Shown here in pieces: positions 1 through 8,037 of a DNA stretch of 36,707 bases. This DNA is from Actinomycetota bacterium (GTDB taxonomy: Bacteria > Actinomycetota > Actinomycetes > Mycobacteriales > JACQDL01): positions 1 through 36,707 of the forward strand of contig JACQDL010000001.1 in NCBI GenBank assembly GCA_016201065.1, in the 5' to 3' direction. Each line of letters starts with the position of its first letter. Position 1 is the stretch's first letter. The notes beneath the pieces were generated by a model, which was not told where the DNA came from, did not search any database, and worked only from the letters and a program-made list of their open reading frames with translations. The position numbers and the translations under genes are program-made.

Positions 1-76
1 CCAACACAAAAGAATCAGACCGCTTCTTCCACCGCAGCAGCGAATCCCACTCGGCAGGCTCAACCTCGATGACCAT
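1..76 (-). CDS. N-terminal fragment of an unidentified protein, cut by the left edge
   Basis: An ATG on the minus strand at 76 opens a frame that runs off the window after 25 codons (MVIEVEPAEWDSLLRWKKRS and on). I do not recognise the family. There is no Shine-Dalgarno sequence. A TAGCAT hexamer at 88-83 ends only 6 nt before the ATG, which is the arrangement of a leaderless actinobacterial mRNA. The fragment is Glu/Trp/Lys-rich and unlike a random GC-rich frame. With so few codons visible, it could still be a chance frame. Confidence 0.35.
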   Translation of the reverse strand, partial: MVIEVEPAEWDSLLRWKKRSDSFVL

Positions 77-82
77 ATGACA

Positions 83-113
83 ATGCTACGCCAACCCGAG
101 AATATTCGAGAAT
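83..113 (-). promoter_or_regulatory. Candidate leaderless promoter with paired direct repeats
   Basis: TAGCAT (minus strand, 88-83) would be a -10 box for the gene starting at 76. Just upstream, CGAGAAT occurs twice on the plus strand, at 97-103 and 107-113. The start-to-start spacing of 10 bp is one helical turn and falls where a -35 box or a bound regulator would sit. No good -35 hexamer is visible. Confidence 0.3.
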
Positions 114-154
114 CCGGTTTTGTTTAATGTTCGCCATACCTGCACGATGAGCAT

Positions 155-395
155 GACGACCACCTACACTGTGGAGCGCACGAGTGACGTATCCCGTTGA
201 TCTGGACCGCTGCCAACCACCCCTGGCCACGTCGTGGGCCGCTGCGGGGCTTGCCGAGAGGGTCCACCGACCAGCCGGCCAGCGGCGACACGCCAGCCGG
301 GGATGCTGGGTGATGCCGGCACCCGGACGATCCCGTCTCTGGTCACCACCGGTGCGGCCACCAGAGGCCGTGTGGGAGGCACCCACGATGCGGGT
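155..395 (+). repeat. Segmental duplication, copy 1 (deleted)
   Basis: This segment is colinear with 2805-3281. Copy 2 spans 477 bp and copy 1 spans 241 bp. The 236-bp difference equals the distance between the two GCTGCGG heptamers at 2891 and 3127 in copy 2. Copy 1 is therefore the product of a single slippage or recombination deletion with no other net indel. Point differences are scattered throughout, so the duplication is not very recent. Confidence 0.85.
184..313 (+). pseudogene. Remnant of the small Cys-motif (CxGCD/WPCRT) protein gene, copy 1
   Basis: The first 21 or so codons from GTG 184 match the start of the intact gene at 2837 (shared SWAAA around residues 17-21). A 236-bp deletion then removes the helical middle and the whole CCGCD...WPCRT cysteine region. 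Since 236 is not a multiple of three, the remaining 3' end is out of frame. The original stop is still recognisable as the TGA at 311-313, overlapping the next start as in copy 2. The gene is not expected to be functional. Confidence 0.7.
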
Positions 396-510
396 GGCCC
401 TGGCCCGTCAGGACATCAGCACCGTCTACCGGCTGCCCTTGATACAGATCTTCCAGCGCGGCGTGAGCGACATCCTTCCGGCAACCCACGTCAGGCCCAT
501 GGGCAGCGGC
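313..510 (+). pseudogene. Degenerate XRE-type HTH gene, copy 1 (N-terminal part)
   Basis: From ATG 313 the frame encodes a stretch parallel to copy 2 (PPEAVWEAPTMRV), followed by ALARQDISTVYRL. From memory, the latter resembles the opening of actinobacterial HTH regulators that continue with a Gln/Ser-rich recognition helix. That helix is absent. After STVYRL the sequence becomes unrelated, apart from a possible trace (GVSDIL), and the frame has no proper stop before the HAD gene. I read it as a decayed regulator. The right-hand end is approximate. Confidence 0.5.
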
Positions 511-556
511 CGCGCTAGGCTCAGCAGCGGCCACCTCACCAGACAGGAGCCCGCCT

Positions 557-1261
557 GTGTACGTCCAGCCGACGCGGCGCCTGGTGCTCTGGGACATCGA
601 CAAGACGTTGGTGGACATCGGTGGCATGAGCCGCGAGATTTATGCTGCCGCCTTCAAGATCGTGACCGGCCTTGAACTCGAACACATGCCGAATATGGCC
701 GGAAAGGCGGACCACGACCTCATCATCGCTTCACTACGCTTGCACGGGATCCCTGAGCCGGCGAGTCATCTGGTCGAATTCTATGGTGCATTGGCCGCCG
801 CGACCGAAGTTCGGAAGGCTGAGATCAAGCAGCACGGACGCTGCCTGCCGGGCGCTCGCGAGGCCATAGAACGGCTCGCCAAGACACCTGGCGTTATGCA
901 GTCAGTCGTGACTGGCAACATCCGACCAATTGCCGAGGCGAAGCTCGCAGCCTTCGACCTGACCGGCCCGATCGACTTCGACATTGGCGGCTACGGCTCG
1001 GATGATGGTGAACGCGCCATGTTGGTACGGCTGGCGCTGCAACGGACGCAGCAGAAGTATGGGGTGTCCTACCTGCCCGAGCAGGTATTCGTCATCGGGG
1101 ATACGCCGTATGACGTCGCCAGCGCCAAGGCAAACAATGTCAGGGCAATCGGTGTGGCGTCGGGCAGCAGCACAGCTGGCGAGTTGCACGCCGCAGGCGC
1201 AGACGCGGCGCTGAACTCTCTGAGAGATACACGGGCGCTCGTACAAGTCTTGCTCGGCTAG
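557..1261 (+). CDS. HAD-superfamily phosphatase (phosphoglycolate-phosphatase-like)
   Basis: This is a 234-aa hydrolase with the complete HAD motif set. The nucleophile motif DIDKT (D13, D15) follows a hydrophobic strand. Motif II is VVTGN (T119), K129 is a plausible motif III lysine, and motif IV is GDTPYD (D182, D186). A helical cap lies at about residues 20-90. Such enzymes hydrolyse small phosphate esters; the substrate cannot be read from sequence. The GTG start at 557 is supported by CAGGAG at 543-548. Its TAG overlaps the stop of the convergent XRE/TPR gene by 4 bp. It sits inside the accessory cassette between two damaged HTH genes, so a link to that regulatory module is possible but inferred. 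Confidence 0.88.
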   Translation: MYVQPTRRLVLWDIDKTLVDIGGMSREIYAAAFKIVTGLELEHMPNMAGKADHDLIIASLRLHGIPEPASHLVEFYGALAAATEVRKAEIKQHGRCLPGAREAIERLAKTPGVMQSVVTGNIRPIAEAKLAAFDLTGPIDFDIGGYGSDDGERAMLVRLALQRTQQKYGVSYLPEQVFVIGDTPYDVASAKANNVRAIGVASGSSTAGELHAAGADAALNSLRDTRALVQVLLG

Positions 1262-2547
1262 CGCGACCGCGCAAAGACGGCGAACCGCTCCCGGAAGTCT
1301 CGTGCGGCGTTTGTGTTGACCGACGCAAGTGCGGCGTCGAACTCGCCGATCCGTTCAACAACTCGGGAGGGGCCGATCGTCAACGCCAGATCAAGGGCTT
1401 CCATACCGGTCTGACAGGCGTGCTCGACCTCTCCGGCCAGCAGTCGGCATTTTGCCAGTCTTGACAGGTAGTGAACATGGTCGCGGACACGCTCCGGCCG
1501 CCGCGCCTTGAGCAGTGCAATGGCCCGAGCAAGTGCCGCACCGGCTTGCGTGTGCAGTCCCAGATCGAGATAGCAGGCGCCAGCTTGGGCGTTGACCTCG
1601 ATCTCGTCAACGTAGGAAATCCACAGCGGCTCGTCGGCCGCACCGGCCCTGCCGTACGCCTCTTGGGCCTCACCCAGCGCGGCCAGGCTCTCTGGGCGGT
1701 TGCCCAACTTGGCGTGTGCCCGAGCCAGACGAGTTTCCAGCATGGTTCGGACGAGTGGCGTCGGGGCCTTCGCAGCGGCTTGCACGGCGGTCGCCGCCAA
1801 TGCTTGTGCTCGCTTCGGGTGGTCGCGGTACGTCGCTTGCAAACTCAGGTAAGCCAGCGCGCTGGCGGCCAACGACCCGTCGTCTGTCTCGTGAGCGACA
1901 TAGACAGCCGTGGTGAAGTTACGGCGGGCAGCGCCATGCCGGTTGCCGTCGAGCGCAAGCCAGCCGGTCATTTGGCTGAGCTGACCTAGGCTGTGCAGGG
2001 TGGCCGGCCGGGGACTAGCGTCAACGGCTCGCGCCAGACGCCCGACGTGCCGTGTCATGGGTTCGTACAGGTCGTCGCCGCCAACCTCTGCATCGAGCTG
2101 CAAGAAGAGTTGCAGGAGCCGGTCAGCACCTGCTGTGACAGTAGTATTCACGACTTCTTCATGCAGCGCGGCTGTTGCCTGGCGACCCTGATCCACCGTG
2201 GCAAGGCTGTGACCCAGCAGGCCAGAGAGCACACCGCTGTCGTCATGGGGGGCTTCCCGTCGGGCAACGCTGGCCTGGGCGATCTCCCGCCGCTGCCGCT
2301 GCACGAGTGACGCCAGCTCGTCGTACTTCGCGGTCAGTGCGCCGCCAGCGTCCAGGACGGCGTCCGCTCTCTCCCAAAAGCGGCGCGGCACGTTCTGCCG
2401 CCCGACCTCGACGTTGGCGATGGTGCTGCGGCCGTAGTGGGTGTAGGGGGCGAGCTGGTGCTGGTTGAGGCCCGCCGCCTGACGGTACTTGGCAAGCTGG
2501 CGACCGAGGACTCGCCGAGCTGCAACGACCTCGTGCGGATCGATCAC
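1258..2547 (-). CDS. XRE-family regulator with C-terminal TPR-like helical repeats
   Basis: The N-terminal HTH lies at residues 15-65. LGRQLAKYRQAAGLNQHQLA precedes a recognition helix reading RSTIANVEVGRQ, followed by the FWERADAVL segment typical of abundant Streptomyces/Micromonospora XRE regulators. The remaining ~350 residues are Ala/Leu-rich helix pairs resembling TPRs, which in relatives sense a peptide or a partner protein. The open frame extends to 2646. I start at GTG 2547 because GGGGAGGTG lies about 5 nt upstream and the HTH alignment begins there, giving 429 aa. It converges on the HAD gene with a 4-bp stop overlap and is divergent from the small gene at 2837. It may regulate that cassette (inference). 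Confidence 0.85.
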   Translation of the reverse strand: MIDPHEVVAARRVLGRQLAKYRQAAGLNQHQLAPYTHYGRSTIANVEVGRQNVPRRFWERADAVLDAGGALTAKYDELASLVQRQRREIAQASVARREAPHDDSGVLSGLLGHSLATVDQGRQATAALHEEVVNTTVTAGADRLLQLFLQLDAEVGGDDLYEPMTRHVGRLARAVDASPRPATLHSLGQLSQMTGWLALDGNRHGAARRNFTTAVYVAHETDDGSLAASALAYLSLQATYRDHPKRAQALAATAVQAAAKAPTPLVRTMLETRLARAHAKLGNRPESLAALGEAQEAYGRAGAADEPLWISYVDEIEVNAQAGACYLDLGLHTQAGAALARAIALLKARRPERVRDHVHYLSRLAKCRLLAGEVEHACQTGMEALDLALTIGPSRVVERIGEFDAALASVNTNAARDFRERFAVFARSR

Positions 2548-2767
2548 GGCGCACCTCCCCGTCTCGTCGCGCTGTGTCAATGGAATGTCGCGGACCGGCG
2601 AACGATCTGTCCGACCTTGGTGCCGGCTGGCTTGGCTTGCAGTCAAGCAACGAAGCAGAACACTACGGAGCCTGGCAGATGACCATCAATCCCAGCTACC
2701 CCAGCCGGTCACGACCTCCGGTGCGCCAGGGAGCGCCCCTTGGCGGTCTGTCCAGCAATTCTGTCGT

Positions 2768-2803
2768 CGTTCGCGAATCACCACGGTACCGGCACGGCGA
2801 ACG
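2768..2803. promoter_or_regulatory. Inverted repeat upstream of the Cys-motif gene
   Basis: CGTTCGC (2768-2774) and GCGAACG (2797-2803) are perfect 7-bp inverted arms around a 22-bp centre that itself contains the palindrome GGTACC. The repeat lies between the divergent XRE/TPR gene and the gene at 2837, a typical operator position. At the corresponding place upstream of copy 1 only the left arm survives. Confidence 0.35.
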
Positions 2804-2804
2804 A

Positions 2805-3281
2805 GACGACCACCTACACCGTGGAGCGAACGAGTGATGTCCCCCGCTGACCTCAACGCCGGCCGCCAACCGATCTTCATGTCGTGGGCCGCTGCGGCGG
2901 TTGCCTTGCATGAGCGGGTGCTGACCGTTGCCCTCGACCGGGCAACGGCCGATCTGGTCGAGCTGCACGCCCCCGTGGACCAGAGCGGGGAACAGCCGGT
3001 GTGCTGCGGCTGTGACCAGGCAAGCCGCACCGACCCGCCCGCGATGTGGCCGTGCCGTACCTACACCCTGCTCGCGGCGAGCGTGCTGAACCTGGGTCCA
3101 GGTGGGGTGGAGGAGGAGCTGAGCAGGCTGCGGGGCTTGCCGAGAGGGTCCACCGACCAGCCGGCCAGCGGCGACACGCCAGCCGGGGATGCTGAGTGAT
3201 GCCGGCACCCGGACGAACCCGTCTCAGGTCGCCACCGATGCGGCCACCAGAGGCTGTGTGGGAGGCACCCACGATGCGGGT
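2805..3281 (+). repeat. Segmental duplication, copy 2 (longer copy)
   Basis: This is the partner of 155-395. Homology starts at GACGACCACC upstream of the small gene and ends just after the internal ATGCGGGT of the HTH gene, where the two copies diverge completely. It still contains the 236 bp missing from copy 1, flanked by GCTGCGG at 2891-2897 and 3127-3133. Confidence 0.85.
2837..3199 (+). CDS. Small Cys-motif protein (CxGCD...WPCRT type), copy 2
   Basis: This is a 120-aa protein. Residues 15-45 are predicted helical (SWAAAAVALHERVLTVALDR). C56, C57, C59 and C73 then lie in CCGCDQ and MWPCRT, a pattern I associate with small actinobacterial proteins often encoded beside HTH genes; it may bind a metal. 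The C-terminal ~30 residues are Gly/Pro/Asp-rich and probably disordered. ATG 2837 is used; a GTG at 2834 is in frame. The TGA overlaps the start of the following HTH remnant, as in copy 1, so the two were translationally coupled. The molecular function is unknown. It is the only intact gene of the duplicated pair. Confidence 0.65.
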   Translation: MSPADLNAGRQPIFMSWAAAAVALHERVLTVALDRATADLVELHAPVDQSGEQPVCCGCDQASRTDPPAMWPCRTYTLLAASVLNLGPGGVEEELSRLRGLPRGSTDQPASGDTPAGDAE

Positions 3282-3489
3282 AGAGGTGAGCGGGATCGTC
3301 CACGGCCGCCAGGTGCGCACCTACGACCTGCTGGTCCGCATCGCCCTCGGGTTGGGCATTCCACCCGGGTACATGGGGTTGGCGTGGTGCACACACACCG
3401 ACTGCCAGCTGCCACCACTCCGTGACGGTGAGCGGAGGACTCCCCGGCCGGCCGCGCCCCCCGCGGGTAGACCCGTCCGGACCGGGTGA
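3199..3489 (+). pseudogene. Internally deleted XRE-type HTH gene, copy 2 (C-terminal part)
   Basis: The frame from ATG 3199 (or GTG 3196) encodes a leader shared with copy 1 up to MRV (residues ~26-28). It then jumps directly to EVSGIVHGRQVRTYDLLVRI and GLGIPPGYMGLAW, the recognition-helix end and C-terminal helices of the regulator. The helices ALARQDISTVYRL, still present in copy 1, are missing. The frame stays open, so a 96-aa product could be made, but it lacks the first half of the HTH and is unlikely to bind DNA normally. Copies 1 and 2 keep complementary halves. It might instead have been co-opted as a truncated partner protein. Confidence 0.5.
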
Positions 3490-3534
3490 ATGGGGCGTGG
3501 CGGTGGTTCCCCAGCCACCGGCCGGCCCGAACCC

Positions 3535-3563
3535 TTGCACGACGAGATCCCGCTCGCTACGGT
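3535..3563 (+). promoter_or_regulatory. Candidate housekeeping promoter for the ABC exporter
   Basis: TTGCAC (3535-3540) and TACGGT (3558-3563) are separated by exactly 17 bp, a good match to an actinobacterial principal-sigma promoter. Transcription would start near 3570, about 65 nt before the ATPase ATG. Confidence 0.4.
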
Positions 3564-3635
3564 CCAAATTCCGTCACGATGGCTTACGCCACCCGACGCC
3601 TGGCGTCGTCGATCACCTCGGCCTTGGGAGCAGGG

Positions 3636-4409
3636 ATGCCGGAACCCGCAGTGGAGGTGCGCGGTCTGACGGTGGTCCGTGGTGGTCGTCCCGTGCTGGC
3701 CGGGCTCGACTGCACGGTCACCGCCGGCACGGTCACCGGGCTGCTCGGCCCCAGTGGCAGTGGAAAGACCACGCTCATGCGCTGCGTGGTCGGCGTACAA
3801 CGGATCTCGGCCGGTGCGGTGATCGTGCTCGGGCAGCCGGCGGGGACCGCCAGCCTGCGCGCACGCGTCGGGTACGTGACCCAGGCGCCGAGCGTGTACG
3901 CCGACCTGTCGGTGCGGGACAACCTGCGCTACCTCAGCGCCCTGGTCGGGGCGGCGCGGAACCGGATCGACCAGGTGCTGGAGCAGGTGGGGCTGACCGC
4001 TCACGCCGGCACGCTGGTGCGCAACCTCTCCGGTGGAGAGTGTTCCCGCGCGTCGCTGGCCGGCGCCCTGGTCGGCGATCCGACGTTGCTCGTGCTCGAC
4101 GAGCCCACGGTCGGCCTCGACCCGGTGCTGCGGCGCGACCTGTGGGCCCTCTTCACCGACCTGGCCGAGCAGGGCACCACGCTGCTGGTCTCCAGCCACG
4201 TCATGGACGAGGCCCGGCGCTGCCATCGGCTGCTGCTGCTGCGCGAGGGGCGGCTCATCGCCGATGACACCCCGGATGCGATCCGGGTCCGCGCCGGCAC
4301 CGACGACCTTGACGAGGCGTTCCTCCGCCTCATCGAGGCAACCCCGACCGAGCCCGCGGTGGCCGCACCCGCCAGCCCGGGACCCGACCCGGAGGTGACC
4401 CGCCGATGA
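3636..4409 (+). CDS. ABC transporter ATP-binding protein (drug/ABC-2 exporter type)
   Basis: This 257-aa ATPase energises the permease encoded next to it. Walker A is GPSGSGKT (38-45), the Q-loop is YVTQ (80-83), the signature is LSGGE (131-135, here followed by CSR rather than the usual QR), Walker B is LLVLDEP (151-157), and the switch His is H188 in SSHVMDEA. The C-terminal Pro/Ala-rich tail matches DrrA/NodI-like exporters. ATG 3636 is chosen because GGAG lies 5 nt upstream; an ATG at 3579 in the same frame has no ribosome site and adds a non-conserved extension. The stop overlaps the permease ATG (ATGA). Confidence 0.9.
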   Translation: MPEPAVEVRGLTVVRGGRPVLAGLDCTVTAGTVTGLLGPSGSGKTTLMRCVVGVQRISAGAVIVLGQPAGTASLRARVGYVTQAPSVYADLSVRDNLRYLSALVGAARNRIDQVLEQVGLTAHAGTLVRNLSGGECSRASLAGALVGDPTLLVLDEPTVGLDPVLRRDLWALFTDLAEQGTTLLVSSHVMDEARRCHRLLLLREGRLIADDTPDAIRVRAGTDDLDEAFLRLIEATPTEPAVAAPASPGPDPEVTRR

Positions 4410-5143
4410 ACCCCCGCCGTACCCTCGCCACCGCCGGCCGGGTGCTCGGCCAGCTCCGGCACGACCACCGCACGGTGGCCCTGCTGCTGGTCGTGCCGTG
4501 CGTGTTGCAGGCCCTGTTCAAGTACGTCTTCGAACGCTCCCCCGGTGTCTTCGACCGGGTCGGGCTGCCGATGCTCGGCGTGTTCCCGGTGATCGCCATG
4601 TTCCTGGTCACCGTCGTGGCGATGGTCCGGGAGCGCACCAGCGGCACCCTGGAGCGGCTGCTCACCACCCCGCTGGCCAAGCTCGACCTGCTGCTCGGCT
4701 ACGCACTGGCCTTCGGCCTGCTCGCGCTGGTCCAGTCGGCGCTGGTCTCCGCGGTGGCACTCGGTCTGCTCGGACTTACCGTGCAGGCCGGTGTCGGCAT
4801 CGTGCTTCTGGTCGCTGTGATCAACGCGCTGCTGGGTATGGCTCTGGGGCTGCTGCTGTCGGCGTTCGCGCAGACCGAGTTCCAGGCGGTGCAGTTCATG
4901 CCGGCGGCGCTGCTGCCGCAGTTGCTGCTGTGCGGCCTGCTCACCCCGCGCGACCGGATGGCGTCGTGGCTGCACGCGATCTCCAACTGGATGCCGCTGA
5001 GCTACGCGGTGGACGCGCTGGTCCGGGCCGGCCACACCAGTGCGATCACCGCCAGCCTCGTCTTCGACGTCGTCGTGGTCCTGGCCTCCGTGCTCGCGGC
5101 GCTGGCGCTCGGCGCCGCGACGCTGCGCCGCCGGACCGCGTGA
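4406..5143 (+). CDS. ABC-2 type membrane permease
   Basis: This is a 245-aa integral membrane protein with about six hydrophobic segments (roughly residues 23-40, 53-75, 98-120, 128-152, 168-185 and 213-240). The MVRERTSGTLERLLTTPL loop after TM2 is a hallmark of ABC-2 exporters (DrrB/YadH/NodJ type). With the ATPase translated just before it, it should form a homodimeric exporter of a hydrophobic compound; the substrate is unknown. Its stop overlaps the GTG of a TetR-like remnant (GTGA), indicating that a local repressor was once encoded in the same operon. Confidence 0.9.
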   Translation: MNPRRTLATAGRVLGQLRHDHRTVALLLVVPCVLQALFKYVFERSPGVFDRVGLPMLGVFPVIAMFLVTVVAMVRERTSGTLERLLTTPLAKLDLLLGYALAFGLLALVQSALVSAVALGLLGLTVQAGVGIVLLVAVINALLGMALGLLLSAFAQTEFQAVQFMPAALLPQLLLCGLLTPRDRMASWLHAISNWMPLSYAVDALVRAGHTSAITASLVFDVVVVLASVLAALALGAATLRRRTA

Positions 5144-5302
5144 ACCCGGCCCACCAGGTACCCGACAACGTTCCAGCACGCCGCAGGGGCCGGCCGCCCG
5201 GTCCGGGCAACACCCGCGACGATCTCCTCCGCTCCCGCGGAGCGGCTCGTCCGGATCTACGGCCGCACCGTGCAGCGCTACCTCACCGGCGTGCCGGAGT
5301 GA
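5140..5302 (+). pseudogene. TetR-family regulator, gutted by an internal deletion
   Basis: A GTG at 5140 overlaps the permease stop (GTGA). It encodes a tail followed by RRRGRPPGPGNTRDDLL, the standard lead-in to the first helix of a TetR HTH. The frame then breaks at about 5230. In another frame the DNA up to TGA 5300-5302 encodes AERLVRIYGRTVQRYLTGVPE, the classic C-terminal end of such regulators (TVQRYLTG). A normal gene would be ~600 bp and only 163 bp remain, so ~400-450 bp including the DNA-binding and ligand domains have been lost. The exporter has probably lost its cognate repressor. Confidence 0.72.
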
Positions 5303-5329
5303 TCCCTGCCGAGGCCGGACTGCCGGGCG

Positions 5330-5977
5330 TCACCCCGGCCCGGGCGACGGCCGGTAGCCGGCCAGCCGACGTGCCGCGGCGGCCAGCTCCACCTCCGTGA
5401 GCAGCCTCGGTGGCCGGCCCGCTGAGATCACCCGCAGCGCCACGTCACACAGCCACTCCAGATGGGTGGCCCGGTCCAGCGCGGTCGCCAGGTCCACGGC
5501 CGTGACCAGGGCGCCGTGGTTGGCCAGCAGGCAGCCGGAGCGGCCCCGCATCGCCCGGGCCATCGCCTCGGCCAGCTCCACCGTGCCGTACGTCGCGTAG
5601 GCCGCCACCCGCGGCGGCCCACCGAACATCGCGGCGTAGTAGTGCACCAGCGGCACCTCGTCCACCAGGCAGGACAGCGCGGCTGCCGCCGGGGAGTGGG
5701 TGTGCACCACGGCACCGGCCCCGGTGATCTCGTACGCCGACAGGTGCATCGGCAGCTCGGTGGTCGGCGCCAGCGGCGCCTCCACCGGCGTGCCGTCGAG
5801 CTGATGCACGCCGACCTGCGCGCCGGTCAGCTCGGCGTACCCCACCGCGGACGGGGTCACCGCGACCAGGTCACCCACCCGCACGCTCACGTTGCCGGCG
5901 GTGCCGGCGACCAGCCGATCCGCGAGCATCCGCCGCCCGGCCTCGGCGACGGCGTGCCGCTCCGTGTCCAGGATCAT
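5330..5977 (-). CDS. Class II aldolase/adducin-family protein (fuculose-phosphate-aldolase-like)
   Basis: The product is 215 aa, the usual size for L-fuculose- or L-ribulose-phosphate aldolase/epimerase relatives. Substrate-loop motif GNVSVR (29-33), catalytic E74 in TTELPMH, and zinc ligands H92 and H94 (VVHTHS) plus H154 (ANHGALV) are all present, so it should be an active Zn-dependent enzyme that cleaves or isomerises a sugar phosphate. The exact substrate is not determinable. The ATG at 5977 is chosen over the longer frame to 6061, because the upstream residues are Arg/Gly-rich and non-conserved. It is a monocistronic minus-strand gene between plus-strand units. Confidence 0.87.
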   Translation of the reverse strand: MILDTERHAVAEAGRRMLADRLVAGTAGNVSVRVGDLVAVTPSAVGYAELTGAQVGVHQLDGTPVEAPLAPTTELPMHLSAYEITGAGAVVHTHSPAAAALSCLVDEVPLVHYYAAMFGGPPRVAAYATYGTVELAEAMARAMRGRSGCLLANHGALVTAVDLATALDRATHLEWLCDVALRVISAGRPPRLLTEVELAAAARRLAGYRPSPGPG

Positions 5978-7240: not shown

Positions 7241-7273
7241 CGCACCAGATCGTCGGGCGGCCGTCAGCGGACC
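7232..7273. terminator. Hairpin between convergent thioredoxin-like gene and hisF
   Basis: GGTCCCTGACG (7232-7242) pairs with CGTCAGCGGACC (7262-7273): 11 bp with a single bulged C and a 19-nt loop. It spans both stop codons and could terminate transcription in both directions. There is no U-tract, as is usual in high-GC actinobacteria. Confidence 0.5.
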
Positions 7274-8037
7274 GGGTAGCCGGCCTCGCGGAGCGCGGCC
7301 TTCGCCTCGCCGATCCGCACCGCGCCGAAGTGGAACACCCCGGCGGCCAGCACCGCGTCCGCGCCGGCCGTCACGGCCGGCGGGAAGTCCGCGGCGCGCC
7401 CCGCCCCACCGCTGGCGATCACCGGCACACCCGACACCGCGCGTACGGCGGCGATCAGCTCCAGGTCGAAGCCGGCCATCGTGCCGTCGGCGTCCATCGA
7501 GTTCAGCAGGATCTCCCCGGCGCCGAGCTCCTGCGCCCGGACCGCCCAGGCCAACGCGTCGAGCCCGGTGCCGCGCCGGCCGCCGTGCGTGGTCACCTCG
7601 AACCCGCTCGGCGTGGCCGGGTCACCGGGGCGGACCCGCCGCACGTCCAGCGACAGGACGAGCACCTGCCGGCCGAAGCGGTGCGCGATCTCGGCGATCA
7701 GCTCCGGCCGCCGCACCGCGGCGGTGTTCACGCTGATCTTGTCCGCACCCGCGCGCAGCAGCGCGTCCACGTCCGCCACCGCCCGCACCCCACCCCCCAC
7801 CGTCAGCGGGATGAACACCTGCTCCGCGGTCCGGCGCACCACCTCGAAGGTCGTCTCCCGGCCCTGCACCGAGGCGGTCACATCGAGGAAGGTCAGCTCG
7901 TCGGCGCCCTCCGCGTCGTAGCGGGTGGCCAGCTCCACCGGGTCGCCGGCGTCCCGCAGGTCGGCGAAGTTGACCCCCTTGACGACCCGGCCCGCGGCCA
8001 CGTCCAGGCAGGGGATGACCCGGACCGCGAGGCTCAC
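7264..8037 (-). CDS. hisF: Imidazole glycerol phosphate synthase, cyclase subunit
   Basis: This 257-aa TIM barrel uses ammonia delivered from HisH to convert PRFAR into imidazole glycerol phosphate and AICAR. Catalytic D12 (VIPCLD) and D131 (LSLDVRR), the phosphate-binding TVGGGVR (79-85), and a second phosphate loop around ASGGAG are all present. The GTG start at 8037 overlaps the RidA-like stop (GTGA). It is the last gene of the his operon in this window. hisI, which often follows, is not here; a plus-strand gene and a hairpin come next. Confidence 0.97.

Follow-up and report, generated by a model that had tools for sequence, protein, structure and literature searches.

Two similar stretches of DNA of unequal length lie on either side of a HAD-family hydrolase gene and an XRE/TPR regulator gene near the start of contig JACQDL010000001.1, and the locus raises the question of what was duplicated to produce them and how many events separate them today. 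The window, by which we mean the whole 36,707-nt stretch of DNA analyzed, carries the following features in this region:

1 to 138, minus strand (probable transposase N-terminus): end of a multicopy insertion sequence (IS), resembling IS630/Tc1-mariner elements in its TA target and inverted ends
137 to 240, plus strand: left half of copy 1, with the upstream region and first part of the Cys-protein gene; identity to 2787 to 2890 is 74%
241 to 247, plus strand: GCTGCGG deletion/recombination junction of copy 1, matching copy 2 at 2891 and 3127
248 to 395, plus strand: right half of copy 1, containing the out-of-frame 3′ end of the Cys gene and the first part of a short helix-turn-helix (HTH) gene; identity to 3134 to 3281 is 96%
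396 to 436, plus strand: further HTH-gene sequence of copy 1, absent from copy 2 in the alignment; HTH homology ends here
557 to 1261, plus strand: HAD-family hydrolase gene, convergent with the regulator gene (Pfam HAD PF12710, E = 3.7e-13)
1258 to 2646 (listed ORF), minus strand: NsdA-family XRE/TPR regulator gene (NCBIfam NF053720, 230.2 bits against a cut-off of 75)
2268 to 2788, no strand assigned: part of the duplicated unit, regulator N-terminus and divergent promoter region, paralogous to contig C33 138 to 649
2787 to 2836, plus strand: copy 2 promoter-side region, the uninterrupted counterpart of the IS target site; the joined IS flanks match across it without gaps (69/94)
2837 to 3199, plus strand: copy 2 Cys-protein gene, open, 120 aa, with C56, C59, and C73 invariant in five aligned sequences
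3196 to 3489, plus strand: short HTH gene of copy 2, missing 99 bp in frame at 3281/3282 in the alignment
3434 to 3530, no strand assigned: dispersed short repeat, found at 7 places in the genome

Alignment within the window bore out the colinearity of the two copies, which the first-pass annotation had described, but moved their borders: homology spans 137 to 395 in copy 1 and 2787 to 3281 in copy 2, starting at 137/2787 rather than at 155/2805. Searches of the genome with the two copy parts gave E-values of 1.3e-67 and 4.5e-17, far beyond chance. The offset from copy 1 to copy 2 is 2650 in the left half and 2886 in the right half, so the proposed 236-bp length difference at the GCTGCGG heptamers is real. 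The copy 1 heptamer (241 to 247) has two counterparts in copy 2, at 2891 and at 3127, and the breakpoint is ambiguous over the length of the heptamer. Across all deletions of 30 to 439 bp inside copy 2 (2805 to 3281), junction identity of at least 7 bases occurs with a frequency of 0.00175.

The 236 bp are ancestral, having been kept in four other paralogues in the same genome (on contigs C36, C52, C44, and C12), which shows that copy 1 lost the segment and not that copy 2 gained it. Removed with it was the region that holds the invariant cysteines (copy 2 residues 56, 59, and 73), and because 236 is not a multiple of 3, the reading frame of the copy 1 Cys gene was lost as well, as had been claimed from the heptamer junction. 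A Ku domain (PF02735) had no match in the whole genome, in a search that found Ku in Bacillus subtilis among 14 control genomes; Ku-dependent end joining is therefore not indicated. Microhomology deletion does not need Ku.

What did not hold was the claim that the copies differ by this one deletion. The first-pass annotation had itself named additional indels in an alignment as evidence against its account, and such indels are present, together with an IS insertion and uneven divergence. The right-hand end of the homology (395/3281) reflects a 99-bp in-frame deletion of copy 2 itself: in an alignment with seven paralogous HTH sequences, the 99 bp directly after 3281, which on our reading would hold helices 1 and 2, are missing from it, while copy 1 keeps that stretch to about 436, where its HTH gene is cut (copy 1 314 to 436 is 83% identical to C12 2464 to 2589). 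The left-hand end (137/2787) is set by the IS, since window positions 1 to 138 are an IS end inserted at TA. We conclude that several separate events set the pair apart: the insertion of a mobile element, deletions (more than one), and divergence that is uneven along the copies. We rejected an origin in which the HAD-TPR block inserted into the copy 1 HTH gene, because no 3′ remainder of that gene turned up ahead of copy 2; HTH matches in the window were confined to 334 to 435 and 3229 to 3417.

The uneven divergence was pronounced. A recent duplicate with one deletion is expected to be equally diverged on either side of the deletion, but the left half (137 to 240) carries 27 mismatches in 104 positions (26%) and the right half (248 to 395) only 6 in 148 (4%; Fisher P = 5.6e-7). 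The regulator side of the cassette, compared between window 2268 to 2788 and contig C33, has 83 mismatches in 511 positions; this segment differs from the right half (P = 5.4e-5), and its difference from the left half is less clear (P = 0.024). Since the right half differs from both other segments, it is the outlier, and would have been homogenized or copied recently. The last left-hand mismatch lies at 230 and the first right-hand mismatch at 309, placing the change point within 231 to 308; the deletion junction falls inside that interval, but the two may lie at different positions.

IS630-Tc1-mariner elements target TA dinucleotides, and the element at the start of the window appears to have done the same. 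Its right end was found at eight contig ends, the window's own included, where the contigs break off; 138 to 141 bases are shared with the window, and TA stands at the position of 137 to 138 in all eight. The left end, found on contig C33, recurs at 11 places in the genome, C33 included, and its tip forms an imperfect inverted repeat with the right tip (18/24 bases). From translation of the minus strand, window positions 1 to 138 probably encode a transposase N-terminus. Searches of plasmid records gave no match by which to identify the element. The TA target and inverted ends are shared with IS630-Tc1-mariner elements as described in the available portion of PMC8533490, a putative family likeness drawn from the two ends.

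What, then, was duplicated? The counterpart site in copy 2 has TA at 2787 to 2788, and it is exactly there that a second alignment ends: window 2268 to 2788 matches C33 138 to 649 at 82% over 522 columns with 11 gap positions (79% for window 2571 to 2788 against C33 138 to 347). The C33 ORF (361 to 1653, 430 aa) would also belong to a regulator; the window regulator's N-terminal reading is 70.5% identical to C33 268 to 648 over 129 columns, starting upstream of the ATG of the C33 ORF, whereas the C-terminal part of the C33 regulator does not align with the window regulator. We read the start of the window regulator as a putative GTG at 2547. The duplicated unit, as judged from these alignments, would comprise the regulator N-terminus, the divergent promoter region, the Cys-protein gene, and the short HTH gene. 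The suggestion that the whole block arose by duplication thus stood for the copies themselves, as parts of a larger unit that includes the regulator N-terminus and promoter side (2268 to 2788 against C33). No second HAD gene was found in the eleven other stretches of the genome compared with it. The HAD and TPR regulator genes are convergent, and their stop codons overlap at 1258 to 1261 (CTAG).

C33 is probably the other flank of the IS, carrying the regulator side of the first unit and joined to the window through one copy of the element. Beyond the regulator ORF, translations of C33 read as a YdcF-like gene followed by hisI, trpE, trpC, and trpB, and we read a candidate hisF in the window at 7264 to 8037. 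The window hisF has matches in 29 of 30 other genomes. In 9 of these 29 relatives, hisF and hisI share a strand and are no more than 1.5 kb apart, and among 13 examined over a longer distance the two genes are on the same strand 3.2 to 9.9 kb apart in 8, with hisI not shown in the other 5. Altogether, 17 of the 29 have the two as same-strand neighbors; the remaining 12 are those 5 and 7 that were not extended. Homology of C33 up to the same TA, together with the hisI-hisF order in relatives, supports the join. As the two are separate contigs, and the genome has 8 right-end and 11 left-end places for the element, the pairing is one that homology and gene order suggest.

Both genes of the Cys/HTH side belong to families with many copies in this genome. 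The Cys protein has seven matches there, five covering most of its length and two (copy 1 and contig C2) that are remnants without the Cys residues, and the short HTH protein has 27, some in long open frames. Among the HTH genes following the seven Cys loci, C12 alone keeps a nearly whole gene, with a TGA in it; copy 2 has the 99-bp gap, C2 has two pieces, copy 1, C36, and C44 have one end each, and none was shown after the C52 Cys gene. Over an 84-codon core, the ten pairs among five Cys genes gave dN/dS values of 0.18 to 0.34, calculated without a significance test. The window Cys protein had no match in Pfam (E up to 0.1), NCBIfam, or PHROGs, and its four paralogues matched no Pfam family (E up to 0.5). 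A single-sequence model of its fold was too poor to use (mean pLDDT, 59.9). No match to the gene was found in phage or plasmid records that would point to such an origin, and none of 32 stretches from viral contigs that matched a pattern encodes a relative. Several places of the 3434 to 3530 repeat lie near cassettes. No Rfam family matched at gathering score anywhere in the window.

Contig C12 carries two tandem units (the second tandem cassette pair, at 857 to 5752, near an IS66 transposase gene), with alike stretches of 96.2% identity on the regulator side (368 bp) and 92.7% in the HTH gene (301 bp) and differing middles of 104 and 486 bp. We rejected it as a clean second case of one deletion, the 104 bp being mostly unlike the sequence opposite in the 486 bp. 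Its neighbors are an MBL-fold-like gene, with matches below the cut-off, and the IS66 transposase gene. Matches below the cut-off to the 2′-5′ RNA ligase family adjoin NsdA-family regulators on two contigs (L059, the C12 locus, 160 to 882, and L060, 7215 to 7925). Against the NF053720 cut-off of 75, the C36 regulator scored 151.7 and the first C12 regulator 84.3, with the second C12 regulator below it at 66.1. The enzyme genes beside the cassettes differ from place to place: HAD in the window, YdcF-like on C33, and MBL-like and 2H-phosphoesterase-like on C12.

Comparison with the same locus in related strains, which had been proposed as a check, was possible only at a distance, as none of the 60 relatives available belongs to the source organism's family. 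The distant relative G011 has hisI, an ABC ATPase gene, an ABC permease gene, and hisF in the window's order, the ABC pair being 63 to 64% identical, with 421 bp between the hisI and ABC pair matches; that stretch has no match to the two regulators, the HAD protein, or the YdcF-like protein, and G011 has none to the Cys family. At 24 public-genome loci with a relative of the HAD protein, the retrieved DNA matched none of the window's regulator, Cys, and short HTH proteins. Of 397 genomes sampled from the order, 2 carried the Cys family, this genome included. A class-wide search found it in 1 of 394 genomes, again this one; the 20 relatives listed in that search all belong to the same order, so the result says little about other orders. 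In genome G012, a regulator with HTH matches below the cut-off lies divergent to the Cys gene side, with a listed ORF (2977 to 3369) between them; it had no NsdA-family match.

The nearest described layouts that we found, by analogy, are the XRE-DUF397 pairs and the bldB/whiJ/abaA clusters. In the available portions of PMC6262351 and PMC10364602, the former are XRE-type regulators beside a small uncharacterized protein in Streptomyces, with many paralogous pairs per genome, and the window likewise has a small-protein gene next to an XRE regulator gene (2837 to 3199 and 1258 to 2646). However, the Cys protein is not DUF397 and has no Pfam match, and its gene, with a short HTH gene after it, is transcribed away from that of an NsdA-family regulator, unlike the XRE-DUF397 arrangement. 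As described in part in PMC10294661, bldB/whiJ/abaA paralogue clusters also comprise multiple small-protein/regulator clusters per genome, a likeness of layout. The window regulator is not NsdA itself (64.8 bits against an equivalog cut-off of 830), and we found nothing in the literature joining NsdA with tetratricopeptide in Streptomyces.

Could one recent duplication of the cassette, followed by a single 236-bp microhomology deletion in copy 1, still account for the pair, as first proposed? The colinearity, the 7-bp junction, and the ancestral state of the 236 bp all fit, but the 26% and 4% divergence of the two halves contradicts it, both copies bear further lesions, and the regulator side is only 82% alike; we regard this account as improbable. 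We consider it very unlikely that the HAD and TPR regulator genes belong to a mobile unit whose ends or scars are the direct repeats: the repeats bracket both genes and copy 1 begins at an IS end, but they are what is left of coding sequences from a gene family, the HAD and regulator genes are the two large genes between them, and C12 has a similar layout with other neighboring genes.

Two other readings give recombination a larger part. The pair may be a live substrate on which direct repeats would allow deletion of the HAD-TPR block or exchange of cassette parts, which the 96% identity over 155 bp, the near-identical right halves, and the mosaic pairs in the window and on C12 would favor; since copy 1 looks pseudogenic and the mosaic could reflect one past event, this seems quite unlikely. 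It is doubtful, too, that the cassettes form a recombination-driven system in which a conserved core (the DNA-binding end of the regulator, the divergent promoter, and the short HTH gene) is copied and recombined while the sensor end of the regulator, the middle small-protein slot, and the neighboring enzyme gene are swapped; if they did, the window pair would show this shuffling at a single moment.

We consider it probable instead that the copies are decayed paralogous regulator cassettes that recombination, deletion at microhomologies, and IS insertion have altered. In such a cassette, an XRE/TPR regulator gene is transcribed away from a small Cys gene, and a short XRE-type HTH gene comes after the latter. 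One unit of this kind lies in the window (1258 to 3489) and, before it, the Cys/HTH side of another (137 to 436). In the first unit, the Cys gene is broken and frameshifted at the 7-bp microhomology junction and the HTH gene ends at 436; the IS would sit in the divergent promoter region of this unit, with C33 as its regulator side. The second unit keeps its Cys gene and has lost 99 bp in frame from its HTH gene. We infer that the right halves owe their similarity to recent homogenization or to copying between them, the rest keeping the old divergence. Copy 1 would be a pseudogene, and copy 2 may still yield the whole Cys protein. By its layout, the original unit would have been a small regulatory operon in which the Cys protein, which may bind metal, was partnered with the short HTH protein; layout and regulator family suggest that the TPR protein likely controls the divergent Cys/HTH promoter with the Cys protein as its partner.

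The pair looks like ordinary decay within a many-copy, uncharacterized gene family, with a history more complex than had been stated. It records several events, which corrects the single-event story, and its uneven divergence points to recombination between paralogues. The Cys proteins themselves emerge as an uncharacterized family of small proteins, rare in the genomes searched and encoded beside XRE/TPR regulators, with dN/dS well below 1 and decayed at some loci of this genome.
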